A DNA stretch of 64,000 nt, taken from the NCBI RefSeq assembly GCF_000263195.1, contig NC_018748.1, forward strand, positions 2,170,001 to 2,234,000. The letters are read 5' to 3'. Numbering within the stretch: position 1 is the stretch's first letter; the number at the start of each line of letters is the position of its first letter. The notes below the pieces were generated by a model, which saw nothing but the letters and a program-made list of their open reading frames with translations, was not told where the DNA came from and did not search any database. Shown piece by piece: positions 41,854-49,060 of this stretch. This stretch comes from Emticicia oligotrophica DSM 17448 (GTDB lineage Bacteria; Bacteroidota; Bacteroidia; Cytophagales; Spirosomataceae). The position numbers and the translations under genes are program-made.

Positions 41854-43032
41854 TTAGCTCAATAACTCATAAATCCCCGCTACACCTTGGCCACCGCCAA
41901 CACAGGCTGTAACCATACCATATTTTTTGTTTTGACGACGAAGTTCATTCAAAACTTGAACAGTCAAACGACCACCAGTTGAACCAAGAGCATGACCGAG
42001 AGCAATTGCACCACCATTTGGATTGATTTTGCTCATATCTAAGCCCAATTCTTTGATAACCGCCAAAGATTGAGCAGCAAATGCTTCGTTCAACTCAATA
42101 ATATCAATATCATCTTGTTTCAAACCTGCTTGTTTCAAAGCAATCGGAATAGCGGCAACTGGGCCAATACCCATGATGCGTGGCTCTACACCTGCCGAAG
42201 CATAAGCCATCATACGTGCGATTGGTTTTAAACCCAATTCGTTCACCATTCTTTCTGACATCACAATTACGAAAGCTGCACCATCAGAAGTTTGCGATGA
42301 GTTACCAGCCGTTACACTTCCACCCATCGAGAAAACAGGACGAAGTTTTGCTAAAGCCTCAACACTCGTATCGGCACGTGGGCCTTCGTCTTTGGTTACT
42401 GTATATTCTTTGTTTTTCTTCTTGCCAGTGGCTTCGTCGAAATACGTTTCTTTTACGGTAATCGGTACAATTTCATCATCGAATTTGCCAGCGGCTTGTG
42501 CAGCCAATGCTTTTTGGTGAGAATTGTAAGAAAAAATATCTTGTTCTTCACGACCGATGTTAAATTGTTGAGCCACTTGTTCGGCCGTAAGTCCCATTCC
42601 GATGTAATAATCGGGGTGATGAGAGGCTAATCCATAATTCAATGCCATTTTCCAACCAGTTGTTGGTACCATCGACATTGACTCTGTTCCACCCGCTACG
42701 ATACAATCGGCCATTCCTGCACTAATTTTGGCAGCCGCCATTGCGATTGTCTCAACGCCCGAACCGCAGTAACGGTTTACAGTTACGCCCGCTACGCTCT
42801 TGCCCAACGACAAAAGCGAAATATAACGAGCCATTTGCATACCTTGCTCAGCTTCGGGAACGGCATTTCCTACGATGAGGTCATCAACACGAGCAGGGTC
42901 GAGGTTTGGCACTTGTGCCATGAGGTGCTTGATTACGTCAGCCGCCAAATCGTCGGGGCGAGTAAAGCGAAAAACTCCTTTGGGTGCTTTGCCGACTGCA
43001 CTTCGGTAGCCAGCTACTATATATGCGTTCAT
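41854..43032 (-). CDS. fadA: acetyl-CoA C-acyltransferase (3-ketoacyl-CoA thiolase)
   Basis: The ATG at 43032 gives 392 residues. Thiolase landmarks: the nucleophilic Cys in NRYCGSGVETIAMAA, NEAFAAQSLAV, the His in GGAIALGHALGSTGGR and the second Cys in TACVGGGQG. It carries out the last step of beta-oxidation, cleaving 3-ketoacyl-CoA to acetyl-CoA and a shortened acyl-CoA. It is the final gene of the minus-strand fad operon, normally next to the fadB-type gene; here a four-helix-bundle gene has come between them. Confidence 0.96.
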   Translation of the reverse strand: MNAYIVAGYRSAVGKAPKGVFRFTRPDDLAADVIKHLMAQVPNLDPARVDDLIVGNAVPEAEQGMQMARYISLLSLGKSVAGVTVNRYCGSGVETIAMAAAKISAGMADCIVAGGTESMSMVPTTGWKMALNYGLASHHPDYYIGMGLTAEQVAQQFNIGREEQDIFSYNSHQKALAAQAAGKFDDEIVPITVKETYFDEATGKKKNKEYTVTKDEGPRADTSVEALAKLRPVFSMGGSVTAGNSSQTSDGAAFVIVMSERMVNELGLKPIARMMAYASAGVEPRIMGIGPVAAIPIALKQAGLKQDDIDIIELNEAFAAQSLAVIKELGLDMSKINPNGGAIALGHALGSTGGRLTVQVLNELRRQNKKYGMVTACVGGGQGVAGIYELLS

Positions 43033-43048
43033 GTTTTCTTTTATTTTT

Positions 43049-43078
43049 AGACAAGAGATTTTAGACAAAAGACAAGAG
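43049..43078. repeat. left arm of the 30-base inverted repeat flanking the four-helix-bundle gene
   Basis: The 30 bases at 43049-43078 are the inverse complement of 43550-43579 except for two positions. They are built from AGACAA-type words. See the finding for the whole unit. Confidence 0.85.
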
Positions 43079-43096
43079 AGTCAAACAAAGAAAAAA

Positions 43097-43459
43097 TCAT
43101 TCTTGGCTGAATTTTCTTTGAAGTGAAAATATAATCTTTTGTATTTCCTGTAATTTTTCACTTAAAAAATTTAATGAATCTATTGATATAATATCTAATT
43201 TATTCGATATGATAAGTTGCGTTTCAAGTTCATAGGATGAAGCAAGTGCAATTCCCAGAAATCGTGCAAAATCCTTATTACTTCCACGTCCAGAACCTTC
43301 GGCAATATTTGAAGGGATAGAAACTGCACAACGTCTAATTTGACTTATCAATCCAAATTTTTCGTCACTTGGAAACGCTGAGGTGATTTTGTAAATATCA
43401 ACAACAGCATCAATTGACAATTGCCAAGCTTTCAAATCACGGAAATTATGAACTTGCAT
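43097..43459 (-). CDS. four-helix-bundle protein (23S rRNA intervening-sequence/S23 type)
   Basis: A 120-residue protein with the family signature at the N-terminus (VHNFRDLKAWQLSIDAVVDIYKIT) and the middle FPSDEKFGLISQIRRCAVSIPSNIAEGSGRGSNKDFARFLGIALASSYELETQL. These proteins were first seen encoded in intervening sequences of 23S rRNA and form pentameric helical bundles; a related fold is the Avd accessory protein of diversity-generating retroelements. Here it stands alone, without reverse transcriptase, inserted between fadB and fadA and bracketed by 30-base inverted repeats. Confidence 0.92.
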   Translation of the reverse strand: MQVHNFRDLKAWQLSIDAVVDIYKITSAFPSDEKFGLISQIRRCAVSIPSNIAEGSGRGSNKDFARFLGIALASSYELETQLIISNKLDIISIDSLNFLSEKLQEIQKIIFSLQRKFSQE

Positions 43460-43549
43460 TCGATTACTTAGATTTTATCCAAATGATGTGAGACAAAAGA
43501 CATTAGACAAAAGATTTTTGTAAAACTTAAAGTTTGAGTGCCAAACTTT

Positions 43550-43579
43550 CTCTTGTCTCTTGTCTAAAATCCCTTGTCT
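43550..43579. repeat. right arm of the 30-base inverted repeat flanking the four-helix-bundle gene
   Basis: Pairs with 43049-43078 (two mismatches in 30). Additional loose AGACAAAAGA copies occur nearby at 43491-43514, giving a low-complexity patch. Confidence 0.85.
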
Positions 43580-43587
43580 TATACAAA

Positions 43588-45996
43588 TTAATTACGTGGC
43601 GGTTTTCCTCCACTAAGTAATCCTTGCATACGCTCCATAGTTTTCTTTTCTCCACAAAGTGATAAGAATGCCTCTCTTTCCAAATCCAATAAATATTGCT
43701 CAGTAACCATTTGTGGATAACTCAAATCTCCACCCGAAATTACGTAGGCCAGTTTATCGGCAATTTTCGCATCGTGTTCGGTGATGTATTTACCCATCAA
43801 CATACCCATGATACCCGCCTTGAAAAGAGCAATTCCTGCTTTTCCTTGTACCTTAATATCAGTGCGTTGTTTTGGTTGCGTATAACCATCTTCTGCCAAT
43901 TTGATGGCTTCTTCTTTTGCTTCAGCAATCAAACGACTACGATTCAATACAATTTTATCTCTGTCGTTTTTCAAATAACCCATATCAAAAGCCTCTTGTG
44001 CCGAAGTCGAAACTTTAGCTTGGGCGATATTCATAAAGGCATTTTGAAGAATATTTAATTCTGGGTCACCAGTTTTGTAGGCATCTGAGCAACGAAGTGC
44101 CATTTCTTTGGTTCCGCCACCTGCTGGAATCAAACCAACTCCTAATTCAACTAAGCCCATGTAGGTTTCGGCATGAGCCACAACCTTATCGGCATGAAGA
44201 TTTAGTTCGCAACCACCACCCAAAGCCAAGCTATGAGCCGCCGTTACGACAGGAATTGACGAATATCTTGCACGCATCATTGTTTGTTGGAATTGTGCAA
44301 TCATCATATTGATTTCGTCGTACTCTTGCTCGATGGCAAACATAAACAACATTGCCAAGTTCGCACCTGCTGAAAATGCTTCGTTAGAATCATTTCCAAC
44401 AACCAAACCTCTAAAATCTTTCTCGGCAATAGCATACGCTTTATTCAAGCCTTCTACTACTTCTGCTCCGAAAGTATTCATTTTTGAGTGGAATTCTACG
44501 CCCGCAATGCCATCGCCCAAATCGAAAATTGTAGAACCTGCGTTTTTCCAAATGACGTTGGTTTGGCGAAGATTATCCAAAATAATGAATGATTCTGTTC
44601 CTGGAATTACTTTGTATGATTTACTCGGAATATCGTAATATTTACGTTTTCCTGCCTCAACTTTATAGAAAGTCTCATTGCCAGCTTCAAGCATTTCATA
44701 CACCCAAGCCGCTGGTTTGAGGTTGAGGTCTTCCATGATTTTTATCATCGGACGAACCCCAATGGCATCCCAAGTTTCAAACATACCCATTTGCCAGCCA
44801 AAACCTGAGCAAATAGCGGCATCAATTCTATATAATTCGTCTGAAATTTCTGGAATACGATTCGTTGCATAACGGAAACCATCGGCAAAAGTTTTGCGGT
44901 AAAACTCACCTGCTTTGTCTTTACCAGCCAAAAGAACCGAGAAGCGTTTTTTCAAATCGTCGATACTTTTGGTGCTTTCAAGGGTAGCAAATTTTACTTT
45001 TTCTGAAGGTTTATATTCAAAAGATTTAAGGTCTAAAGCCAAAATAAGCGTTTTGCCTTTTTCATCCTTCGTCTTTTTGTAGAAACCTTGACCTGTTTTA
45101 TCTCCGAGCCATTTGTTTTCCATTAATTTGGCCATTGTTGGCGGCAAAATAAAGGCATCTTTCGACTCGTCGGTTTCTAAAACATTGATTAGGTTATTAC
45201 AAACATTAACTGTTGTATCTAAACCAACCACATCTGACAAGCGAAAAGTACCTGATTTCGGGCGACCAACCACTGTACTGGTGAGTTTGTCAACTTCTTC
45301 AACGGTCAAGCCCATTTCTTCGGCCACTCTGATGGTTTGAACCATCGCATAAATTCCTAAACGATTGGCGATAAATGCTGGCGTATCTTTACACAAAACG
45401 GTTGTTTTTCCCAAAAATAAATCGCCGTAGTGCATCAAGAAATCAACCACCGATTTGTCAGTTTTGTCAGTTGGGATGATTTCCAACAAACGTAAATAGC
45501 GTGGTGGATTGAAGAAGTGAGTACCGCAGAAATGTTTCTGGAAATCTTCTGAGCGGCCTTCTGCCATCAAATGAATCGGAATACCCGAAGTATTTGAGGT
45601 GATAAGTGTACCTGGCTTACGGAACTTCTCAACTTTGTCGTAGATAATTTTCTTGATGTCGAGACGCTCAACAACTACCTCGATAATCCAATCGTAGGCA
45701 GCGATTTTTGGCATATCGTCATCAAAATTGCCCAGTTTTACTCGGCTCAGTGATTTCTGACTAAAAATTGGCGAAGGACTTGCCTTTACTGCAGCTTGGA
45801 AAAGTTCACCCACGATTCTGTTGCGAACAGCAGGGTGCGAAGTGTCGAGTCCTTTGGCTTTTTCGGCGTCGTTTGGTTCTTTCGGAACCATGTCGAGGAG
45901 TAGCACCTCCACTCCGATATTAGCAAAGTGCAACGCAATACGGCTTCCCATAATGCCCGCACCCAAAACAACTACTTTTTTGATACTACGATTCAT
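43588..45996 (-). CDS. fadN: 3-hydroxyacyl-CoA dehydrogenase / enoyl-CoA hydratase fusion (FadN-like order)
   Basis: 802 residues. The dehydrogenase half comes first (VVLGAGIMGSRIALHFANIGVEVLLLD; HFCGTHFFNPPRYLRLLEIIP; DTPAFIANRLGIYAMV). The crotonase half follows from about residue 500 (FRGLVVGNDSNEAFSAGANLAMLF; AAHSLALGGGCELNLHADKVVAHAETYMGLVELGVGLIPAGGGT). This order is the reverse of E. coli FadB and matches Bacillus FadN. It hydrates enoyl-CoA and oxidises the 3-hydroxyacyl-CoA with NAD in beta-oxidation. It is in one operon with the thiolase downstream and the thioesterase-like genes upstream. Confidence 0.95.
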   Translation of the reverse strand: MNRSIKKVVVLGAGIMGSRIALHFANIGVEVLLLDMVPKEPNDAEKAKGLDTSHPAVRNRIVGELFQAAVKASPSPIFSQKSLSRVKLGNFDDDMPKIAAYDWIIEVVVERLDIKKIIYDKVEKFRKPGTLITSNTSGIPIHLMAEGRSEDFQKHFCGTHFFNPPRYLRLLEIIPTDKTDKSVVDFLMHYGDLFLGKTTVLCKDTPAFIANRLGIYAMVQTIRVAEEMGLTVEEVDKLTSTVVGRPKSGTFRLSDVVGLDTTVNVCNNLINVLETDESKDAFILPPTMAKLMENKWLGDKTGQGFYKKTKDEKGKTLILALDLKSFEYKPSEKVKFATLESTKSIDDLKKRFSVLLAGKDKAGEFYRKTFADGFRYATNRIPEISDELYRIDAAICSGFGWQMGMFETWDAIGVRPMIKIMEDLNLKPAAWVYEMLEAGNETFYKVEAGKRKYYDIPSKSYKVIPGTESFIILDNLRQTNVIWKNAGSTIFDLGDGIAGVEFHSKMNTFGAEVVEGLNKAYAIAEKDFRGLVVGNDSNEAFSAGANLAMLFMFAIEQEYDEINMMIAQFQQTMMRARYSSIPVVTAAHSLALGGGCELNLHADKVVAHAETYMGLVELGVGLIPAGGGTKEMALRCSDAYKTGDPELNILQNAFMNIAQAKVSTSAQEAFDMGYLKNDRDKIVLNRSRLIAEAKEEAIKLAEDGYTQPKQRTDIKVQGKAGIALFKAGIMGMLMGKYITEHDAKIADKLAYVISGGDLSYPQMVTEQYLLDLEREAFLSLCGEKKTMERMQGLLSGGKPPRN

Positions 45997-46040
45997 GGTT
46001 TTGTGTTTGATTTTTTTATTTCTTGATTTTCTTTGTGTCT

Positions 46041-46087
46041 CTTAGTTCCTTAGTGGTTAGAAAAATAATTACCACTAAGGAACTAAG
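46041..46087. repeat. perfect 17-base hairpin beside the GxxExxY gene
   Basis: CTTAGTTCCTTAGTGGT at 46041-46057 pairs exactly with 46071-46087 around a 13-base loop. It lies between the GxxExxY stop and the fadN start and overlaps the inner flanking repeat of that gene. Confidence 0.85.
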
Positions 46088-46097
46088 ATTCACTAAG
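46077..46097. repeat. left arm of the inverted repeat flanking the GxxExxY gene
   Basis: Twenty-one bases at 46077-46097 match the inverse complement of 46507-46527 with three mismatches; both are made of ACTAAG-type words. Together they bracket the GxxExxY coding region closely. Confidence 0.75.
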
Positions 46098-46098
46098 G

Positions 46099-46503
46099 TT
46101 AATCAGGTAATGCTGAAAAATATTCATTTACGAAGGGTTTTATGCTTCTTGTAATATTATCTGTATGGAAATTTATTAGTAAACCTTTAGGCTTTTTGAG
46201 TAGTTTCATATAAGTAAGAAGTTGTGCCTCGTGAATTGGATGTATTTGCTCAACAGCTTTTAGTTCGACAATTACGGAGTCATTTACCATAACATCAAGT
46301 TTTAGTTCAGCTTGTACTTGAATGTTTTTATAAATTACAGGCACAGTCATTTGCCGAACAATACTAAAGCCCTTACTTTGTAATTCATGACAAAAACAAG
46401 ATTCGTAAACACCTTCCAACAAACCAGCCCCTAATTGTTTATGCACTTCAATAGCACAGCCAACAACTTCATAAGCTAATTGATTTATGCTCTTTTTTGT
46501 CAT
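46099..46503 (-). CDS. GxxExxY family protein
   Basis: 134 residues containing the naming motif in GAGLLEGVYESCFCHEL (G-x-x-E-x-x-Y). Nuclease-fold-like strands follow: VQAELKLDVMVNDSVIVELKAVEQIHPIHEAQLLTYMKLLKKPKGLLINF. The E-L-K-A pattern after a hydrophobic strand is reminiscent of PD-(D/E)XK nucleases (D...ExK). The family is found as scattered single genes in Bacteroidota and other genomes and, like the four-helix-bundle proteins, in rRNA intervening sequences. Function unproven. It interrupts the fad operon here. Confidence 0.92.
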   Translation of the reverse strand: MTKKSINQLAYEVVGCAIEVHKQLGAGLLEGVYESCFCHELQSKGFSIVRQMTVPVIYKNIQVQAELKLDVMVNDSVIVELKAVEQIHPIHEAQLLTYMKLLKKPKGLLINFHTDNITRSIKPFVNEYFSALPD

Positions 46504-46506
46504 TTT

Positions 46507-46527
46507 CTTAGTGTACCTTAGTCCCTT
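46507..46527. repeat. right arm of the inverted repeat flanking the GxxExxY gene
   Basis: Partner of 46077-46097. Immediately beyond it 46533-46546 forms a small ACCGC-CGAA-GCGGT hairpin. Confidence 0.75.
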
Positions 46528-46555
46528 ATCGGACCGCCGAAGCGGTGGTTAAAAT

Positions 46556-46870
46556 CTATAATTGACTTTGTAATCTTTTCACAAGCATCGTTATTATTCG
46601 ACGATTTAGCTCAGTTTCCATCGAAATGTAATCTTTATATTGCTCAACGGAAAGTTTCCCGATTATCATTCCAACAAAATAATTGCGTAATTGTGCGTCT
46701 TTTTTGATGGTATTTTCGATGTAATTAGCTTGGTCTTCGGGCGAATACTTTTCAAATACAACTTTATGTTTGACCAAATATTGCTTAAAAACAGCAATCA
46801 ATAACTCATTTTGTTCTTTCAAAATCGGTCTTAAAAACTCATTCTGAAAATTTTCTTCTGCTGAAATCAT
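46556..46870 (-). CDS. conserved small protein of the fad operon, unknown
   Basis: The ATG at 46870 overlaps the stop of the hotdog gene (ATGA), a strong sign of coupled translation; the 104-residue product starts MISAEENFQNEFLRP. It is predominantly helical (LKEQNELLIAVFKQYLVKHKVVFEKYSPEDQANYIENTIKKDAQLRNYFVGMIIGKLS) with no signal or membrane segment. I do not recognise a named family. Its place in the operon suggests a role alongside the thioesterase-like protein or the beta-oxidation enzymes. Confidence 0.8.
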   Translation of the reverse strand: MISAEENFQNEFLRPILKEQNELLIAVFKQYLVKHKVVFEKYSPEDQANYIENTIKKDAQLRNYFVGMIIGKLSVEQYKDYISMETELNRRIITMLVKRLQSQL

Positions 46871-47364
46871 GTATGTTTTTTCTTCAAAATCCAAGCCCAA
46901 ATCATCTCCGTTACAACTACTTCTTCTTCCGTTTCATCTGTCACTTTTACCGTAACATTCACTTCGCCTTTGTCTGTTTCTCTGATTTGCTTTATTTGCT
47001 CTTCGGTTAGTGTAGCTACGGCTCTTTGCCTTCCCTGACTTCGCTTGATAAACTTCACTGAAAGGTGTTTCATGAGTGGAAGTTTATCATCGGGAATATT
47101 CATGCCAACCACCATGCCCGAAGCCGTTTCGGCTAAAAGTGTTGTTGCGGCGGCATGAATTTGCCCAATGTGATTTTGTACTTTGTTTTTATTTGGAAGT
47201 GTTATTGCGACCTCTTGACAAGTCATTTTCTCGAAATGTATGCCTGCTGTACCAACAAACTTAACGAATCGACCGATGGCGAAGTCACGCATGAAACTAC
47301 GCATAAATGAAGGTAGTCTTTGTAGTCTGGCTAAGGTACGATTGAGATTGTTGTTGTACTCCAT
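46867..47364 (-). CDS. DUF4442 / PaaI-like hotdog-fold protein, putative acyl-CoA thioesterase
   Basis: 165 residues with the DUF4442 hotdog pattern: GIHFEKMTCQEVAITLPNKNKVQNHIGQIHAAATTLLAETASG, then MKHLSVKFIKRSQGRQRAVATL. Hotdog proteins of this kind hydrolyse or bind acyl-CoA thioesters. It is the first gene of the fad operon and lies directly behind the promoter with two palindromic operators, so it would be the most strongly expressed of the set. Confidence 0.87.
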   Translation of the reverse strand: MEYNNNLNRTLARLQRLPSFMRSFMRDFAIGRFVKFVGTAGIHFEKMTCQEVAITLPNKNKVQNHIGQIHAAATTLLAETASGMVVGMNIPDDKLPLMKHLSVKFIKRSQGRQRAVATLTEEQIKQIRETDKGEVNVTVKVTDETEEEVVVTEMIWAWILKKKHT

Positions 47365-47387
47365 AAATTTTGGAATAATGGTACTTT

Positions 47388-47402
47388 AGTATGCTTGCAT
47401 AA
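47388..47402. promoter_or_regulatory. operator A of the fad operon (TATGC-nn-GCATA palindrome)
   Basis: AGTATGCTTGCATAA contains the palindrome TATGC-TT-GCATA. It lies just downstream of the -7 element and covers the expected start site of the minus-strand promoter, a repressor position. Confidence 0.75.
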
Positions 47403-47410
47403 TTTCGGAA

Positions 47411-47440
47411 CAAATATACGTGAAAGATATTAGTATGCAA
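47411..47440 (-). promoter_or_regulatory. Bacteroidota-type promoter of the fad operon
   Basis: On the minus strand TTG (47438-47440), a 19-base spacer and TATATTTG (47411-47418) match the consensus. The -33 end lies within operator B and the start region lies at operator A, so the promoter is enclosed by both sites. Confidence 0.8.
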
Positions 47441-47446
47441 GCATAC
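47432..47446. promoter_or_regulatory. operator B of the fad operon (TATGC-nn-GCATA palindrome)
   Basis: AGTATGCAAGCATAC repeats operator A except at the two central bases and overlaps the -33 element. The centre-to-centre distance between A and B is 44 bases, about four helical turns. Confidence 0.75.
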
Positions 47447-47614
47447 CAATATAAAATTTGTTTTTACAAGATTTATTATGAAAAAAAAAATAAATAGAGG
47501 GTAGGGCGTTTTCTATTGAAACCAAACTTTATGAGGTATCGTTTTAGGGGAAAGTACTACTTATTTTGTCTTAATAGTCGAAATAATTCATCACAAAATC
47601 TACCAATTTACATT

Positions 47615-48481: not shown

Positions 48482-49060
48482 ATGCAAAAACAAGATTTAA
48501 GAAAAGAATATCTTCGGCAACGAAAAGCCCTCAGCGAACAAGTCGTGGAGGGCTTTTCTCGAAAAATACATGATTGGTTTTTTAGGAGTTTTGCTGTTCA
48601 CTCATTTGCCACAATTCATACTTTTTTGCCAATAAAACACAATAATGAGGTAGATACTTGGCTCATTATCAAAACTCTACAAAAAGATTTTGCTGCTGAT
48701 ATCGTCATTCCGAAAAGCCACCCAAATGGTACAATGACTAATTATTTATTGACCGAAAAAACGGTTTTGGAAGAAAGTAACTTAAAAATTATTGAGCCAA
48801 ACGAAACTCAGAACTCAGAACTCAGAACTCAGAACTCGAAAATAGATTTAGTACTTATTCCATTGCTTTGCTTTGATAAAAAAGGTTATCGAGTAGGTTA
48901 CGGTAAGGGTTATTATGACCGATTTTTAGCAGAATGTCGCCCCGATGTAATGAAAATTGGTCTTTCGTTGTTTGAACCAGTTGAAGAAATAGCAATTGAT
49001 GAATTTGATGTAAAGATGGATTACTGCATAACACCAAATAAAATTTGGAGTTTTTTGTAA
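48482..49060 (+). CDS. 5-formyltetrahydrofolate cyclo-ligase
   Basis: 192 residues. The N-terminal MQKQDLRKEYLRQRKALSEQ and the C-terminal signature DLVLIPLLCFDKKGYRVGYGKGYYDRFLAE are those of the enzyme that converts 5-formyl-THF to 5,10-methenyl-THF using ATP. Residues around 108-119 (ETQNSELRTQNS) are encoded by a heptanucleotide tandem repeat and fall in a variable loop before the conserved IDLVLIP. The frame is intact. Confidence 0.94.
   Translation: MQKQDLRKEYLRQRKALSEQVVEGFSRKIHDWFFRSFAVHSFATIHTFLPIKHNNEVDTWLIIKTLQKDFAADIVIPKSHPNGTMTNYLLTEKTVLEESNLKIIEPNETQNSELRTQNSKIDLVLIPLLCFDKKGYRVGYGKGYYDRFLAECRPDVMKIGLSLFEPVEEIAIDEFDVKMDYCITPNKIWSFL
48805..48837 (+). repeat. heptanucleotide tandem repeat inside the cyclo-ligase gene
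   Basis: Four exact AACTCAG units plus a partial fifth. The unit length is not a multiple of three, so gain or loss of one unit would shift the reading frame, while a three-unit change would keep it. Confidence 0.95.

Follow-up and report, generated by a model that had tools for sequence, protein, structure and literature searches.

Introduction

Terminal repeats that form a stem, with a gene of the S23 family in its loop, are a described arrangement: a 23S rRNA intervening sequence (IVS) of 428 nt carries an S23p open reading frame (ORF) above a stem of 28 bp (PMC4990558). The 23S rRNA intervening-sequence protein (IVP) is also named in PMC10910872, IVP ORFs occur in 16S and 23S insertions of candidate phyla radiation (CPR) bacteria (PMC11270868), and PMC8934634 is among the closest literature. 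Here we analysed a stretch of 64,000 nt from Emticicia oligotrophica DSM 17448 (NC_018748.1, positions 2,170,001 to 2,234,000; hereafter the window), in which an S23 gene and a gene of the GxxExxY family, each bracketed by its own inverted repeat (IR), stand in two gaps of one beta-oxidation operon. The S23 unit of the window likewise has a single gene in the loop of a terminal stem (31 nt, against 28 bp), and both it and the IVS measure about 0.4-0.55 kb and lie in a transcribed region; it differs in occupying the fadN-fadA gap, between protein genes, rather than the interior of a 23S rRNA gene. Three 23S motifs that we tested were absent from all S23 and GxxExxY loci of the set used below for gene orientation.

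Repetitive extragenic palindromic (REP) elements with their REP-associated Y1 transposase (RAYT) have REPs of one sequence per family. They share with the window units a single gene between palindromic repeats, but RAYT is a catalytic Y1 transposase, whereas the window units hold S23 and GxxExxY instead, and each S23 copy has its own unit. The TAACTGA repeats of Beggiatoaceae, Cyanobacteria and some Bacteroidetes consist of one fixed heptamer in direct arrays (PMC4679880); their author considered that a repeat-binding protein could be the mobile element, and the main text of that paper contains none of the terms 23S, four helix, intervening or GxxExxY. A search of literature that takes in few subscription journals gave no paper connecting operon-borne S23 or GxxExxY genes to inverted arrays of units, which is weak evidence of novelty.

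In the present study we demonstrate, from genome sequences, the arms, their unit pattern and its family specificity, the orientation of the units, their preference for operon gaps, their presence and absence among relatives, and gene-less copies. The pattern in the loci examined is real and ordered, and we lean, with reserve, towards reading the units as IVS-like hairpin elements residing in operon gaps, the mechanism being our inference. Similar units in the operon gaps of other bacteria suggest a little-known family of hairpin elements living in messenger RNA. S23/IVP and GxxExxY genes are frequent and their role is not known; if the arms are addresses read by the encoded proteins, both families would gain a target testable by a simple binding assay. 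On the same condition, rRNA intervening sequences would be one branch of a wider family of elements standing between genes in messages, and an origin would be at hand for many of the low-complexity hairpins found in operons of Bacteroidota.

Inverted repeats around S23 and GxxExxY genes

The S23 gene of the window (43097-43459, minus strand; 120 aa; PF05635, E=8.8e-39; TIGR02436) codes for a four-helix-bundle protein of the 23S-rRNA-IVP type. In the sense of transcription, its 5' arm (43549-43579, minus strand) reads AGACAAG GGATTTT AGACAAG AGACAAG AGA on the sense strand and its 3' arm (43049-43079, minus strand) reads AGACAAG AGATTTT AGACAAA AGACAAG AGA on the plus strand. The 3' arm has five AG anchors at 7-nt spacing; the 5' arm has five units if GG counts as the second anchor, its strict AG run being three. 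The pair is 31 nt long, 94% complementary, and scores 27 in our IR test, and the arms form the terminal stem in the predicted RNA fold of the whole 555-nt fadN-fadA gap. An earlier note on this sequence had described 30-nt inverted repeats around the S23 gene between fadN and fadA and proposed their folding as an RNA stem; the repeats were confirmed, falling within the 31-nt pair, and the prediction agrees with the stem. Further heptads, AGACAAAAGACATTAGACAAAAGATTTT, with four AG anchors, lie between the 5' arm and the gene on the plus strand, opposite to transcription (43491-43518), and could pair with the 5' arm.

The GxxExxY gene (46099-46503, minus strand; 134 aa; PF13366, E=2.6e-40; TIGR04256) belongs to the PD-(D/E)XK nuclease family. 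Sequence reading and the IR test place its arms at 46507-46527 (5', minus strand, sense AAGGGACTAAGGTACACTAAG) and 46077-46097 (3', minus strand); they are 21 nt long with three mismatches, just as had been described. The perfect 17-nt hairpin claimed beside them (46041-46057 / 46071-46087) is also present, as the core of a 27-nt hairpin of 89% (46031-46057 / 46071-46097, minus strand) that lies between the gene and fadN and overlaps the 3' arm. The arm pair is supported by this adjoining hairpin and by other GxxExxY copies. A dispersal of the window GxxExxY unit elsewhere in the genome was considered and rejected, the unit having 2 matches, both within the element, versus 3 for the reversed control.

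Many other copies of both families proved to have inverted repeats of their own; most of these copies stand within operons and point in the direction of transcription. One scoring scheme was applied to S23, GxxExxY and background, with an IR score of at least 19 as the threshold; the background came from running the test along 464 kb, made up of the window, its elements unmasked, and 20 stretches of the window's genome, each of 20 kb. The threshold was reached by 22/30 S23 loci of the genus and 14/24 GxxExxY loci of the order, against 14 of 8,986 background positions, window element included, and 2 of 59 control small genes (90-190 aa). It was also reached by 43/78 named S23 loci versus 63/1,914 mismatched arm pairs, and by 29/51 loci of an enlarged GxxExxY set versus 17/1,000. 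S23 genes occur on viral contigs as well (11 found), and inverted arms scoring at least 19 flank five of the eight inspected. Two pictures had been named beforehand as contrary to the proposal, namely relatives carrying the same genes free of repeats, and other copies with repeat-free flanks; neither emerged from the loci examined.

The 30 genus loci are those of 31 fetched, from 41 listed matches, that remained after one with little flank (L049) was dropped. The 24 GxxExxY loci come from 33, less the two halves of one broken gene (L008, L009), two with short flanks (L072, L084) and the partial or weak L089-L093; the 51 are these 24 and 27 added ones (L195-L221). The named S23 loci are the best 80 of 572 confirmed relatives, picked by similarity to the window protein; the IR test used 78 of them (without L156 and L192, which have short flanks), and the counts of periodicity, anchors, orientation, sites and unit runs used 79 (without L156). 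Several of these records are metagenome-assembled genomes (MAGs), whose record name may mismatch the contig (e.g., L133).

Within the window's genome (G000) there are five S23 matches, one with an internal stop (L004), and GxxExxY genes of which two are intact and one is broken. Inverted repeats of 25-35 nt also surround L002, L003, L005 and L007, and that of L004 is clear only with gaps allowed (score 23); the broken GxxExxY gene (L008) has no repeat above chance. The arm sequence differs from copy to copy within this genome.

Unit structure of the arms

The arms of S23 and GxxExxY units vary from copy to copy, yet their code depends on the gene family. Dinucleotide identity in S23 arms at a lag of 7 is 1.8-2.0 times background on both sides, with echoes at 14 and 21, whereas GxxExxY arms display a broad rise at lags 8-11 (about 1.2 times background at lag 7) and are rich in CRCNRRK units, CACAGA, CACGGA, CGCAGA and similar words abounding in the GxxExxY flanks. 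The earlier note had described the two units of the window together as small elements; they are of two kinds with different repeat patterns, 7-nt units in S23 and CRCNRRK about 8-11 nt apart in GxxExxY.

When the longest series of a single dinucleotide recurring every 7 nt was taken for each of 109 S23 loci, it most commonly comprised five units (32 5' arms and 39 3' arms), and five remained the mode after clustering at 65% identity (25/70 and 24/70 arms); no run above four was seen in 400 background windows. At least four units occur in both arms of 36/79 named S23 loci. AG is the anchor in these loci, most of which belong to the clade of the window protein, with exactly five AG in 21/79 5' arms and 25/79 3' arms. 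Near S23 genes, 164 kb of strand contained 76 runs of at least five AG; the remaining 630 kb of these loci contained 26, several of which fall at what we read as the next operon gap. The 928 kb of strand from G000 and the window yielded no more than two such runs, one being the window S23 arm and the other 48807-48836. We rejected AG as a universal anchor, since in the 30 genus loci runs of at least five AG amounted to one in 5' arms and four in 3' arms.

It might be supposed that the arms are low-complexity slippage arrays growing in intergenic DNA, whose inversion and link to two gene families are an accident of the persistence of small orphan genes. The arms are indeed degenerate tandem repeats, and arrays also occur solo and within coding sequence, but slippage does not account for a unit length that tracks the gene family or for the five-unit mode. 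Moreover, a five-unit run was found in only 1 of 181 intergenic gaps, and that gap is part of the window S23 element, while the control small genes, as given above, rarely have IRs. We consider this explanation highly improbable.

One end sequence common to all copies was also rejected, for the arms differ and units are common only to related elements and gene-less arrays. For elements that occupy different sites, the more alike the proteins, the more alike the arms: seven pairs above 75% identity have a mean best arm score of 32, with a baseline of about 12, and the correlation of 0.12 was reached by 2 of 500 permutations. Seven is an upper bound for these pairs, because some of them sit at truncated or neighbouring sites (L127, L132). 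A run of 20 GGTAAAG-like heptads was seen near an S23 element at a contig end (L194, 3671-3805).

Placement in operon gaps

Both neighbours are co-directional in 100/109 S23 loci and 15/24 GxxExxY loci, compared with 11/28 control small genes. With fadN and fadA found by tblastn, 22 of the 109 S23 sites lie between fadN and fadA and 10 after fadA, a share that is inflated because the named loci were picked by similarity to the window protein. The other sites, by our reading, include sdhA-sdhB, leuC-leuD, leuA-leuB, GATase-trpD, lipoyl E2-lpd, a methylmalonyl-CoA mutase pair and the position before carB; apart from fadN/fadA and nine flanking fragments checked by Pfam, these names are our own reading. 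As a correction to the earlier note, the presence of S23 in the fad operon is not a single occurrence, and the tree calls for several gains or losses at that site. To explain the fadN-fadA label, 13 changes are required, of which well supported branches force at least four (the alignment is short and many forks are unresolved), and the gap has therefore been filled or emptied repeatedly. One supported clade unites elements of the sdh and fad gaps with similar arms (L115, L126, L122).

Sites between subunit genes (sdhA-sdhB, leuC-leuD, the mutase pair, GATase-trpD, lipoyl E2-lpd, before carB) give some weight to another idea, that the units are host regulatory modules, i.e., hairpins between cistrons that would govern the stability of subunit messages or the ratio between them, S23 regulating itself by binding the five-unit array of its own message. 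TRAP with its NAG repeats is a model for binding of this kind. That the gene-less leuC-leuD gaps of the genus are without exception predicted to form hairpins (8/8) and that fad gaps are repeatedly occupied would also fit. Yet the distribution is patchy, with a short, S23-free fadN-fadA gap in six of ten genus members and 0 to 11 S23 matches per genome within one genus, and the unrelated GxxExxY occupies the same gaps elsewhere, all of which leaves host regulation, in our judgement, an unlikely explanation.

Returning to the hairpin elements, we read ten genus genomes at fadN-fadA and found S23 there only in G000. The gap is short and S23-free in six of the ten (26 nt in G010, 27 nt in G007, and short in G001, G002, G003 and G008), so that the empty sites sought in relatives do exist. 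In G009 the same gap holds a GxxExxY unit with its own arms. Within 260 nt before fadN, inspection by eye showed the window GxxExxY gene in G000, G009 and G010, its absence from the other seven, and gene-less hairpins in G002, G004, G007 and G008. At leuC-leuD, read in 10 of 11 genomes, S23 is present in G009 and G010; in G038, which belongs to a different genus of this family, the gap read as leuC-leuD contains a GxxExxY gene (L069). Other inserts were observed between fadN and fadA in G004 and G006 (L011, L015), the gaps being 938 and 1,442 nt, which perhaps marks this gap as a hot spot for small cargo.

Such empty sites, together with inverted arms, gene-less relatives and arrays reading inwards at both ends, are also what one would look for in classical DNA transposons with terminal inverted repeats (TIR), the transposase being lost or acting in trans and the arms serving as protein-binding ends without any involvement of RNA. 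We find this quite unlikely. The arms differ between copies of one genome and hence offer no common end sequence, the sense orientation of 100/109 S23 genes with both neighbours is not predicted by DNA insertion alone, and no clear target duplication was recognised by eye.

Gene-less arrays

The unit of L002, AGTTCTGAGTTCTGAG, has 46 matches in G000 when two mismatches are allowed, versus 6 for the reversed pattern. Inspection of 16 places with matches to this AGTTCTG unit, besides L002 itself, revealed several hairpins in gaps and four places within predicted ORFs. The window S23 unit has 15 matches versus 6 reversed; three are in the window element, and gene-less hairpins were seen by eye at four other places. 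The eight gene-less leuC-leuD gaps (L223, L224, L226-L231) all give predicted hairpins (z = -1.1 in G000 and between -2.3 and -4.8 in the other seven), and four of them carry, by eye, CACTAAG/CACGAAG-like units. The earlier note had described gene-carrying hairpins; hairpins that have the same units and lack a gene exist as well. The gene-less leuC-leuD hairpins are mostly unrelated in sequence.

The window itself contains a solo AGTTCTG array at 48807-48836 (minus strand), with five AG anchors and the same unit as in the L002 arms. It lies in frame within 48482-49060, a gene read as 5-formyl-THF cyclo-ligase, and encodes the peptide TQNSELRTQNS. AGTTCTG arrays were also noted within two predicted ORFs of 516 and 861 aa at G000:C5:788837 and 1121426 (L244, L245).

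Evidence for and against the proposed hairpin elements

The proposal that small elements have settled in transcribed regions is supported in part: the repeats, the sense orientation and the empty sites speak for it. Several results weigh against the reading as hairpin elements. Scores stayed below 19 in 8/30 and 35/78 S23 loci and in 10/24 and 22/51 GxxExxY loci, a clear repeat being limited to about half to three quarters of copies, and the GxxExxY arm pair of the window, with a score of only 16, is weak by itself because 86 of 8,986 background positions score at least 16. Only 40/108 S23 and 21/51 GxxExxY loci have own arms whose RNA duplex energy surpasses the top 5% of mismatched pairs. 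In the fad-operon set, the own-arm score has a median of 16.5, lower than the 95th percentile for mismatched pairs (19), and no more than 17/32 copies have their own 3' arm as one of the three best partners; compensatory change is accordingly unproven. Covariation was tried as proof of RNA structure and was positive only in part, in the arm-partner and duplex-energy tests.

Further points on the same side concern code and movement. Other S23 clades have different anchors, and some have 8-nt units, AG being the anchor of the clade of the window protein, and only 15/24 GxxExxY genes are co-directional on both sides. The position of the cyclo-ligase array is taken in relatives by an unconserved loop that is almost as long, and a plain insertion is for this reason unsupported there. 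Comparison by eye of G000/G009 with G010/G007, whose boundaries are not sharp, revealed no clear target-site duplication. The best-pair list of 31 genus S23 loci contains no near-identical full-length pair within one genome, so that the copies of G000 look old or came separately, and recent hopping within one genome was rejected.

Encoded proteins and possible mechanism

The window S23 protein, modelled as a monomer (pLDDT 95), has 2gsc as its best PDB match (TM 0.92) and also matches 2rld, Avd and chains of ribonucleoproteins of diversity-generating retroelements (DGRs). Both 2gsc and 2rld consist of five chains of one sequence, and a Xanthomonas S23 protein is a homopentameric toroid (PMC4990558); the pentameric state is taken from these relatives. 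Avd of DGRs (4dwl; chains of 8ub7 and others) has the same four-helix fold as S23, with a TM of 0.75-0.81 by query, and its likeness to PF05635 has been remarked before (PMC10053308). The likeness here rests on comparison of folds and with Pfam, in which the window protein has a weak match to bAvd (E=2.4e-05, below cut-off). We know of no catalytic site in S23. The GxxExxY model (pLDDT 92.5) has Cas4-like (SSO0001, E=4e-3) and lambda-exonuclease proteins as its nearest folds, with weak E-values, and no Foldseek match at E<=0.001. Like these PD-(D/E)XK nucleases it has a conserved D, E and K, the D...ExK active-site residues D70, E80 and K82 being invariant in 27 aligned sequences; it differs from them as a small single-domain protein in a hairpin unit.

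These observations gave rise to the following scenario. Each gene would be the cargo of an element of about 450-550 bp, lying in the gap between two operon genes in the direction of transcription. The element would be a transcribed hairpin, its arms inverted arrays of short units and its gene in the loop, as in the 23S rRNA IVS that encodes S23. Since each gene family has a unit of its own, the encoded protein may recognise its own arms; in S23, every subunit of the homopentameric ring would read one 7-nt unit, about five in all, an idea suggested by the match between five units per arm and five subunits, and the GxxExxY nuclease would act on CRCNRRK arrays. An RNase III-like enzyme may excise the stem from the message, leaving fadN and fadA as separate, translatable messages, and the element would be tolerated for that reason. 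Gene-less hairpins may be derivatives, or sites where the gene settles, and spread is probably rare and partly by horizontal transfer. The correspondence of a five-unit array to a five-subunit ring offers a sharp and cheap test.

A bolder combination of these ideas is conceivable, and as a whole we regard it as speculative and improbable. Each subunit of the S23 pentamer would read one 7-nt unit, five units would make an arm, and every element would have its own address in both arms, so that gene, arms and dispersed gene-less arrays form a private network. Arrays would spread as RNA and could replace sequence of about their own length, the cyclo-ligase gene being an example, perhaps via a borrowed reverse transcriptase as with Avd in DGRs. 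GxxExxY units would work in parallel, with a reader and a unit that differ from those of S23.

Host operon and further observations

The gene row on the minus strand of the window comprises a DUF4442 protein, a 114-aa gene, GxxExxY, fadN, S23 and fadA, the four operon genes being on the same strand as both passenger genes. The ORF list and family profile matches identify a fadN-like 3-hydroxyacyl-CoA dehydrogenase/crotonase (43588-45996, minus strand) and a fadA-like thiolase (41854-43032, minus strand), and the 114-aa gene had no family match in profile searches. Ahead of the operon are two copies of a TATGCTTGCATA-like palindrome (47377-47401 / 47434-47458), and AGTATGCTTGCATAA likewise precedes fadN in L022, L023, L027 and L032; this palindrome may serve the beta-oxidation operon as an operator. 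At L102, 2050-2721, a RAYT-like Y1_Tnp gene (E=2e-06) stands between palindromic repeats and adds a third type of single gene with flanking repeats to this genome.

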